Source of the DNA: a virus
Virus record (IMG/VR): IMGVR_UViG_3300032288_001494
Location: 1 to 25,105 of that record
Length of the DNA stretch: 25,105 bases
Direction: 5' to 3' (one strand)
Below are positions 3,259 through 5,682 of this stretch, in pieces. Position numbers and translations under genes: made by a program. The notes below the pieces were generated by a model, which saw only the letters and a program-made list of their open reading frames with translations, had not been told where the DNA came from and did not search any database. Position 1 is the stretch's first letter. Each line of letters opens with the position of its first letter.

Positions 3259-3564
3259 TTAAAAAGGAATATCGTCGTACTCTTCGTGCTTTGCTGCTGG
3301 TCCTGGCTTACCTTGACCACTGGCAACTCCCTCCGCTTCGTGGATTTGTCGGTCTAGGTTTCGAGCGTCTCGCCATTTATCGACTTGGCTCAATAGCTCA
3401 CTAAGAACCGTAAGATCGTCCGGATACCAGTATTTGCTCTCTTTGTACTCACCGCTCGTCTTGTCCTTGTACGTTTTGCGAAACGTGTAGCTATAGCCTC
3501 GCTCGTTTTGCCACGCTGCTATGTCTATCCCTTTCATTCGCCATGATTGTGCTGGTTTTGCCAT
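3259..3564 (-). CDS. SSB-like single-stranded-DNA-binding protein (PC4-type resemblance)
   Basis: A 101-residue protein, first gene of the leftward block. The N-terminal 65 residues (KGIDIAAWQN, YSYTFRKTYKDK, YKESKYWYPDDL, VLSELLSQV) resemble phage proteins of the PC4/transcription-coactivator-like ssDNA-binding group. A flexible G/P linker leads to an acidic end, EEYDDIPF. That C-terminal DDIPF is the signature of bacterial SSB tails, which dock host replication and repair proteins. The gene has a good TATAGGAGAC Shine-Dalgarno context and faces the HTH gene across a 53-bp control region. With ERF it would coat and anneal single strands. The tail and the partial domain match are seen; binding itself is inferred. 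Confidence 0.65.
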   Translation of the reverse strand: MAKPAQSWRMKGIDIAAWQNERGYSYTFRKTYKDKTSGEYKESKYWYPDDLTVLSELLSQVDKWRDARNLDRQIHEAEGVASGQGKPGPAAKHEEYDDIPF

Positions 3565-3617: not shown

Positions 3618-3821
3618 ATGACACAAGACAAAAACGAATCAATTATTACACCGATGCCAGAAAAATATGTGCCGATAAAGGTTGTGTGCCAACACTTTGA
3701 CATATCGGAAACGACTGTTCGTAAGCTGATAAAAAAGGGCTTACCTCAATTGAGAGTAGGCATTGAATATCGGTTTAAGATTTCGGATGTAGAGCGTTGG
3801 TTGATTGAACAGAAGAAATAA
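3618..3821 (+). CDS. Small HTH DNA-binding protein (excisionase/MerR-type)
   Basis: A 67-residue protein. After a 15-residue polar tail it has the standard HTH_17/excisionase pattern: YVPIKVVCQHFDISETTVRK (17-36), LIKKGLPQLRVGIEYRF (37-53) and a C-terminal ISDVERWL helix. That is a winged helix with the recognition helix at about 29-40 and the RVG...YRF wing. Such proteins act as excisionases or as small transcription regulators. With no integrase in view, regulation of the flanking divergent genes is the better guess. It has no ribosome-binding site and is probably translated from a leaderless transcript. A bidirectional terminator follows its stop immediately. Confidence 0.75.
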   Translation: MTQDKNESIITPMPEKYVPIKVVCQHFDISETTVRKLIKKGLPQLRVGIEYRFKISDVERWLIEQKK

Positions 3822-3889: not shown

Positions 3890-4396
3890 ATGAAGAACAA
3901 TATCAGAAAACACCGCATCGGCATAGTAGACTTTGCGCTAGTTGACGCAGGACTATCACACCACGAAGCATTGATTTATGCATATGTAAAACGGTTTCAA
4001 CGGAACAAGCGGCCATGCTTTGCAAGCATCACTCACATAGCGGCTGAATTAAGAATGTCAGCGCCGACTGTTAAACGACATATCAGGCGACTTTTACAGC
4101 TGCAAGTTTTAACAGAAACGGTACGTGGAAGAGGGCGGTTCTTGAGCACGAATGGGATCAAAATGATCCCAATCAAGAATAGGGATCAAAATGATCGGAA
4201 TAGGGATCAAATTGATCTCGATAGGGATCAAAATGATCCCGGTGATTGGGATCAAAATGATCCCCTACCATTAAAAGTATTACCATTAAAAGATACCAAT
4301 AAAAGTACCATGAATGATTCTAATCTTGATTTTAAGAAGCTAAACACGTTTGCAGAGCGTTCTGGACTACGTCGTAGGTTTGGAGATGCCGATTAA
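3890..4396 (+). CDS. Lambda-O-like replication initiator with built-in origin
   Basis: A 168-residue protein. Residues 22-85 form a winged helix-turn-helix of the HTH_36 type (LSHHEALIYAYVKRF, ITHIAAELRMSAPTVKRHIR, LQVLTETVRGRGRF), as in phage replication initiators that bind origin iterons. Residues 88-125 are a low-complexity linker encoded by five 17-bp palindromic iterons. A short tail (LDFKKLNTFAERSGLRRRFGDAD) ends the protein. Lambda O (299 aa) has the same order: DNA-binding domain, linker encoded by ori, and C-terminal helicase-loader contact domain. Here the last part is almost absent. I chose ATG 3890 (AAAGGA 12 bases upstream); an in-frame TTG at 3839 lies inside the terminator hairpin. 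No lambda P- or DnaC-like partner follows. Confidence 0.75.
   Translation: MKNNIRKHRIGIVDFALVDAGLSHHEALIYAYVKRFQRNKRPCFASITHIAAELRMSAPTVKRHIRRLLQLQVLTETVRGRGRFLSTNGIKMIPIKNRDQNDRNRDQIDLDRDQNDPGDWDQNDPLPLKVLPLKDTNKSTMNDSNLDFKKLNTFAERSGLRRRFGDAD
4154..4264. repeat. Five palindromic iterons: probable replication origin
   Basis: Five copies of GGGATCAAAATGATCCC or close variants lie at 4154-4170, 4182-4198, 4203-4219, 4224-4240 and 4248-4264. Start-to-start spacings are 28, 21, 21 and 24 bp, so the central copies repeat about every two helical turns. Copies 1, 4 and 5 are identical; copy 2 ends in CGG, and copy 3 has ATTG in the centre and ends in CTC. Each is a 7-3-7 dyad like the lambda O iterons. 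Copy 1 is read in a different frame (GIKMIP) from the others (RDQNDP-type), so conservation is of the DNA, not the peptide. Each copy contains two GATC sites. Confidence 0.8.
4266..4317. repeat. AT-rich 12-mer repeats: candidate DNA unwinding element
   Basis: Immediately after the last iteron come TACCATTAAAAG (4266-4277), TACCATTAAAAG (4281-4292), TACCAATAAAAG (4294-4305) and a weaker TACCATGAATGA (4306-4317). AT-rich direct repeats beside the iterons are what an initiator melts first in lambda ori and in oriC. They are translated as part of the initiator tail (LPLKVLPLKDTNKS). The unwinding role is inferred from position and composition. Confidence 0.6.
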
Positions 4397-4565
4397 AAGC
4401 TCTACAATGAACGCTGTGGCACGATAACGGGCTAGGGTATATCTGAGGTAGGTCCAAGATTAGGATTGAATAGCGTTCATCCTAGAGGCTTGAAAGAAAG
4501 GTTGTGCGAAGTGGTCAGAATGTGTACATTGAAGATGCGTGATCTAGTCCATCATGTCTCCATGC
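4397..4565 (+). other. Structured intergenic stretch, candidate non-coding RNA
   Basis: About 170 bases between the initiator stop and a strong terminator hold no convincing ORF. ATGAACGCT (4407-4415) pairs perfectly with AGCGTTCAT (4472-4480). CTAGG inside that loop (4432-4436) can pair with CCTAG directly after the stem (4481-4485), a possible pseudoknot. It could be a 3-prime UTR structure or a separate small RNA from the origin region. I found no clear promoter for it and do not recognise an RNA family. Confidence 0.3.
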
Positions 4566-4873: not shown

Positions 4874-5042
4874 GACTTATGTACCATTTAATAGCCTTTG
4901 CAAGCGCATCTTTCAGCGACTCGCCATTTGATTTCGCAATTTTTACAAACTGACTAAACACCTCCAACTGCACATAAACAGTTTGTCTTTTGTAGCCAGC
5001 AGGAGGCGCGTCATAAGATTTGCGGTCAGGTATTTTCTTCAT
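4863..5042 (-). CDS. Small ribbon-helix-helix-like protein (59 aa)
   Basis: A 59-residue basic protein. YKRQTVYVQLEVFSQFVKIA plus KSNGESLKDALAKAIKWYI gives a short strand, a helix, a turn and a second helix, the layout of ribbon-helix-helix (CopG/Arc) DNA-binding proteins. That suggests a dimeric regulator, but the match is by pattern only. I prefer the ATG at 5042; a TTG at 5051 is in frame. Either start overlaps the end of the ERF gene (17 or 26 bases), and neither has a good Shine-Dalgarno, so translational coupling is likely. Confidence 0.6.
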   Translation of the reverse strand: MKKIPDRKSYDAPPAGYKRQTVYVQLEVFSQFVKIAKSNGESLKDALAKAIKWYISHGH

Positions 5043-5682
5043 TGCTATCAACTACATATTGCGTTAGCCGTTCCAATCTGAATTTAGTTTTGAGCTTATT
5101 TTCAGAAATTTCTACGGCACCATTTTGCAACAGATATTCCCTTGCCGCTTGCCGTTTTGTCTCGTCAAGTGGCGACAGGTCATACGTTGTTGGGGTTAGC
5201 TTGCCGGGTGCGACAGCTTGCACGATTTTGGCTACATCACCCTCAAGCACTTTCTTGCCACCCACAATCTCACCTGGTGTACGACCAGTCTTTTGCAGAG
5301 GTTTTACCGATGCTACTGCGGCGTTACCGTCACAATCCTCTGGTGCTATACCGCACGCCGACATCAGCCCATAGCGCCTTGCATAGGTCAAAGCTGAACC
5401 GAAGCCGTGAGCATCTTGTTTAGACGCTGGTACGTGCAGTTTTCCACACGATAGAGATTCTCCACTCTCGTGGATAAATATGGTTTCCACCAATGCGCCA
5501 TTGTTACACTCATGTACCGTTTGAATTAGCCCTATTCCGTTATCGTTTAATGCGTCTATTACTGCCTCGACACACGCCGACAAATCAGCATACTTCGATC
5601 TGAAATGTGGGTTAGTGCTAGTCTTTAGCGCTGGTCCAAAAGCTTTTTGTGCTTTTACAAAAGCTGCGTAAATTGTTTTCAT
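5026..5682 (-). CDS. erf: ERF-family single-strand annealing recombinase
   Basis: A 218-residue protein with all the ERF hallmarks: KAFGPALKTSTNPHFRSKYADL (13-34), a central strand LVETIFIHESGESL, GSALTYARRYGLMSACGIA (95-113) and the acidic EDCDGNAA (115-122). A variable linker and helical C-terminus follow. ERF proteins (P22 Erf type) form rings that anneal complementary single strands for genome circularisation and recombination. A strong GGAGG lies six bases before the ATG, which overlaps the preceding stop (TAATG). Length is usual for the family. It pairs naturally with the SSB-like protein at 3259-3564 and the resolvase-like nuclease at 754-1083. Confidence 0.92.
   Translation of the reverse strand: MKTIYAAFVKAQKAFGPALKTSTNPHFRSKYADLSACVEAVIDALNDNGIGLIQTVHECNNGALVETIFIHESGESLSCGKLHVPASKQDAHGFGSALTYARRYGLMSACGIAPEDCDGNAAVASVKPLQKTGRTPGEIVGGKKVLEGDVAKIVQAVAPGKLTPTTYDLSPLDETKRQAAREYLLQNGAVEISENKLKTKFRLERLTQYVVDSNEENT

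Follow-up and report, generated by a model that had tools for sequence, protein, structure and literature searches.

The 25,105-nucleotide stretch of viral DNA analysed here (the window) carries five 17-bp dyads inside a gene for a winged-helix protein. They are very probably the iterons of a replication origin of the lambda-O type, nested in the gene for its initiator, which is the best explanation we have for the arrangement. The gene layout is that of lambda O, the dyads have the core of lambda's iterons, and they are under selection as DNA.

Results

The initiator gene (3890-4396, + strand, 168 codons) was identified from domain matches, PHROG families and alignments. Its start codon was set at 3890 rather than 3839 because the protein is common to relatives from MKNN onward. 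A domain search matched HTH_36 in the N-terminal part, and in PHROG the top matches fall among replication initiation and O-like proteins, with several families at E values of 1e-9 to 1e-5. The AlphaFold2 model has a block-mean pLDDT of 71-90 over residues 11-90; the model, fold comparison and covariation place a winged-helix domain at residues 15-87 (3932-4150, +), with the recognition helix at residues 58-70 (4061-4099, +) and residue 59 encoded at 4064-4066. The linker that follows has a pLDDT mostly below 50 and is predicted to be disordered. Fold searches with the model pointed to no more than a generic winged helix, the DnaD N-domain being one of the tied matches. The winged-helix initiator proposed in the original prediction is therefore backed by the HTH_36 match, the PHROG matches and the AlphaFold2 model.

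The initiator had no match by tblastn in the INPHARED phages or by phmmer among PDB sequences, and a search of GTDB genomes with its N-terminal alignment returned no relatives. Many of its relatives end in a tail of the form D(D/E)(I/L)P(E/D), which is presumably similar to the acidic tip found on single-strand binding proteins; the clade that includes the window has no such tail. Elsewhere in the window, a 101-residue protein of no assigned family, encoded at 3259-3564 (- strand), ends in EEYDDIPF, a C-terminus that resembles the acidic tip of a single-strand DNA binding protein. A small helix-turn-helix gene lies directly upstream of the initiator (3618-3821, +; an open reading frame with HTH_17 and excisionase-like PHROG matches) and probably heads the transcription unit that includes the initiator. 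Just 3' of the initiator gene, at 4393-4494, is an inverted repeat with 23-nt arms that are 78% complementary; it is partly conserved among relatives and had no Rfam match. An Erf-type single-strand annealing protein is encoded beside the presumed origin region (5026-5682, -).

The five dyads occupy codons 89-125 of the 168, 3' of the DNA-binding part, and all lie on the + strand. Iteron 1 (GGGATCAAAATGATCCC, 4154-4170) is read as G-I-K-M-I-P. Iterons 2 (GGGATCAAAATGATCGG, 4182-4198) and 3 (GGGATCAAATTGATCTC, 4203-4219) are read in the D-Q-N-D and D-Q-I-D frame here, and in the GIKMI frame in most relatives. Iterons 4 and 5 (both GGGATCAAAATGATCCC, 4224-4240 and 4248-4264) are again in the D-Q-N-D frame. 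The positions and frames originally described, with copies 2-5 one base off and read as (R/W)-D-Q-(N/I)-D, were thus recovered. Copies 1, 4 and 5 are identical, while copies 2 and 3 each carry two mismatches. When up to three mismatches are allowed, these are the only sites in the window, against 0.06 expected from dinucleotide shuffles, none of which reached the observed number.

Adjoining the array is a block of 73% AT (4265-4320, +), the presumed DNA unwinding element, which ranks among the 0.4% most AT-rich 50-bp windows. It holds three 12-bp AT-rich repeats (TACCATTAAAAG, TACCATTAAAAG and TACCAATAAAAG at 4266, 4281 and 4294, together spanning 4266-4305) that had gone unmentioned in the original prediction. 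They are read in two frames, twice as P-L-K and then as T-N-K. Of 24 relatives, 23 have two or three copies beside the array, and the block is without a single difference in two near relatives. By analogy with lambda, these repeats may be the site of unwinding.

The relatives comprise 24 loci, some of them near-identical to one another. They were gathered with the N-terminal domain alone, so the iterons had no influence on the choice. Dyads were found in all 24, degenerate in a few; the script detected only one in L234 and two each in L221 and L231. In most relatives the GIKMI frame covers copies 1-3 and the DQND frame copies 4-5. The window's clade has the GIKMI reading for copy 1 only, and in L219 the first frame extends to four copies. 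The stretch that separates copies 1 and 4 is 53 nt long in the window and 50 nt long in L216, and the two loci read copies 2 and 3 in different frames. A search of relatives for dyads in non-orthologous frames had been suggested as a check, and this is what most of them have at copies 2 and 3. Single exact matches to the 17-mer in six other loci (L009, L010, L012, L020, L021 and L022) had no good second copy and were set aside as chance.

Codon choice within the window points the same way. Given the encoded peptides and the codon usage of this phage, the probabilities of the five observed 17-mers multiply to about 1e-13. In 20,000 synonymous redraws the mismatches to the dyad consensus came to 19.4 +/- 2.5 with a minimum of 10, against four observed. 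Comparison with relative L213 gives 28 synonymous differences among 63 sites for the N-terminal part and one among 29 for the iterons and AT block together (Fisher p 3e-5). The iterons are under selection as DNA, as had been proposed: synonymous change is almost nil across the array, the redraws fall far from the observed sequence, and the frame shifts among relatives with the dyads kept.

The arms of the dyads vary between relatives together with residue 59 of the recognition helix. Across 20 relatives, proline at this position goes with AT just outside the CAAA core, serine or cysteine with GT or GG, and arginine with GC. Of the 81 N-terminal positions compared (7-87), residue 59 alone fully predicts the arm class in these 20 relatives, the classes being assigned by hand and L231 carrying a GT copy as well as a GC copy. 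When the helix was left out of the tree, in which most branches are poorly supported, residue 59 and the arms each changed six times; two independent changes lie on supported branches, too few for a significance test. Relatives L219 and L227 are near-identical before the helix and after the iterons, while the helix and all the iterons differ, as if one cassette had been exchanged. These comparisons suggest that the DNA-reading helix and its presumed binding sites change together, and the covariation of residue 59 with the arms indirectly supports the proposed binding of the iterons by the initiator. Outside the family, alanine or valine at residue 59 goes with C and lysine or arginine with G (Fisher p 0.05 and 0.004, from related sequences and classes chosen post hoc), which we treat as a lead only.

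The layout closely follows that of lambda gene O and ori-lambda (J02459, 38686-39585, iterons at 39034-39118): a DNA-binding N-terminal part comes first, followed by the iterons in mid-gene and after them an AT-rich tract. The iterons had been thought to differ in sequence from those of lambda. In fact the core TCAAAAYGA is common to lambda (ATCCCTCAAAACGAGGGA) and the window (GGGATCAAAATGATCCC), and only the arms differ (CCC...GGG in lambda, GGGA...TCCC here). Spacing is about 20-24 bp in both, with four iterons in lambda and five here. Lambda's four annotated iterons are read in three frames, as PQNEG, PKTRD, LKLGD and PSKQG (J02459). Lambda O is the larger protein at 299 residues; its C-terminal part is large, and gene P lies downstream. 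The window's initiator has 168 residues and no recognised loader. The Stx phages P27 and 933W also have nested iterons and an AT-rich region (PMC7466680); unlike the window, they have six iterons of lambda sequence and clear lambda O relatives. Pam5, the nearest phage by terminase (41.5%), has no such iteron array.

We searched IMG/VR for closely spaced triplets of the core TCAAAAYGA, which returned at least 119 stretches, and analysed 118 loci, near-duplicates included. The presence of the core in these arrays follows by construction, as it was the search term; their location, outer dyads and frames do not. Among the matches listed for the 118 loci, 95 arrays overlap an open reading frame, with strands agreeing in 92 cases, and 63 of these 95 arrays are read in two or three frames. 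Outside the core, where the search pattern left the bases free, 2.32 of 4 positions pair in the matches listed; a reversed-core control gave 1.07 of 4. At least 45 of the 68 non-redundant genes with nested arrays, again among the matches listed, match a PHROG initiator family; the 25 commonest families in the control are tail or unknown proteins. A scan of genome contigs for core triples gave at least 118 loci, mostly unrelated repeats, of which 16 were initiator-like or multi-frame. The families concerned are O-like and DnaD-like initiators of other phages (phrog_428, 270, 678, 391 and 186), several of which the window's initiator matches too. Their members are mostly longer than it, with a further C-terminal part and other arms.

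Two loci stand apart. One, from the reversed-core control (L204, 6437-7234, -), has dyads at 22-bp spacing in three frames of a replication-like gene and probably represents a nested origin built on another core. The other (L023, 438-500) has three TCAAAATGA dyads outside any open reading frame, just downstream of an opposite-strand gene for a winged-helix protein.

Judged by these sequences, nesting of iterons in several frames is common in the lambda-O class. Lambda's own use of three frames and the shared core make multi-frame nesting a property of the class rather than the mark of a new type. The parallel with lambda O drawn in the original prediction has accordingly grown closer, extending to gene layout, iteron core and multi-frame reading. 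The two-frame reading loses its special standing, since lambda uses three frames and most of the listed arrays that overlap a reading frame use two or three. What was put forward as a new origin type seems instead to be an additional member of the lambda-O class of nested origins.

Discussion

How might such an origin work? The N-terminal winged helix of the initiator, probably as a dimer, would bind the five dyads, and the assembled complex would open the neighbouring AT-rich repeats at 4265-4320. The host replicative helicase could then be recruited through the initiator's short tail or another partner. Dyad binding, dimerisation, unwinding and helicase recruitment are all steps that we infer. 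We propose that the linker encoded by the iterons serves as an unstructured tether under little protein constraint, so that dyads could fit any stop-free frame. There is experimental precedent for the general model in P27, where transformants fell from about 5e4 to fewer than 10 when iterons 1 and 1' were mutated without altering O (PMC7466680), so that plasmid establishment was abolished.

The initiator is much shorter than lambda O, which we counted against a nested origin. A search for DnaB (PF03796) and DnaC-type proteins (PF01695) in nine contigs, 20-37 kb in length and all possibly incomplete, gave no match. GC skew turns near 8-9 kb in the window and not at 4.2 kb, where a change of sign had been anticipated. 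This does not refute an origin, as the lambda origin also lacks an extremum, and we dropped skew as uninformative for that reason.

The dyads would suit a dimeric regulator, and the winged helix is as close to MarR and ArsR repressors as to DnaD, so they might instead be operators through which a transcriptional autoregulator, and no replication initiator, binds inside its own gene. We consider this unlikely: the sites lie mid-gene, distant from any promoter and beside conserved AT-rich repeats, the PHROG matches are replication initiators and the layout is that of lambda O. Formation of hairpins in RNA or single-stranded DNA, as in a terminator, attenuator or cruciform, is less probable again. 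Every dyad is able to pair, and a minus-strand terminator-like match spans copies 4 and 5, but such matches occur at the level of shuffled sequence, no Rfam family was found, and the arms track a residue of the DNA-recognition helix. Least credible of all is that the repeats are kept for the peptide, for instance if they formed a series of binding motifs in the linker. Both DQND and GIKMI do recur as motifs within the protein, but frame shifts alter the peptide between relatives while the DNA stays, synonymous sites are conserved and the linker is predicted to be disordered. As the reading frame changes between relatives, we rejected selection on the peptide.

The nested origin thus remains our preferred reading, and with it the lambda-O origin class gains a lineage of uncultured phages whose initiator is unmatched in the annotated phage collection. 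Because a single gene holds the helix and the iterons within about 200 bp, origin specificity could spread between phages as a single cassette. It is possible, and we suggest it tentatively, that O-like initiators share one core, TCAAAAYGA or close to it, that one helix residue sets the adjacent base pairs and that specificities spread as such a cassette. Relatives in which the helix and all the iterons differ jointly are natural pairs that make an initiator specificity code directly testable. Such a code would help to predict origins from sequence in uncultured phages.
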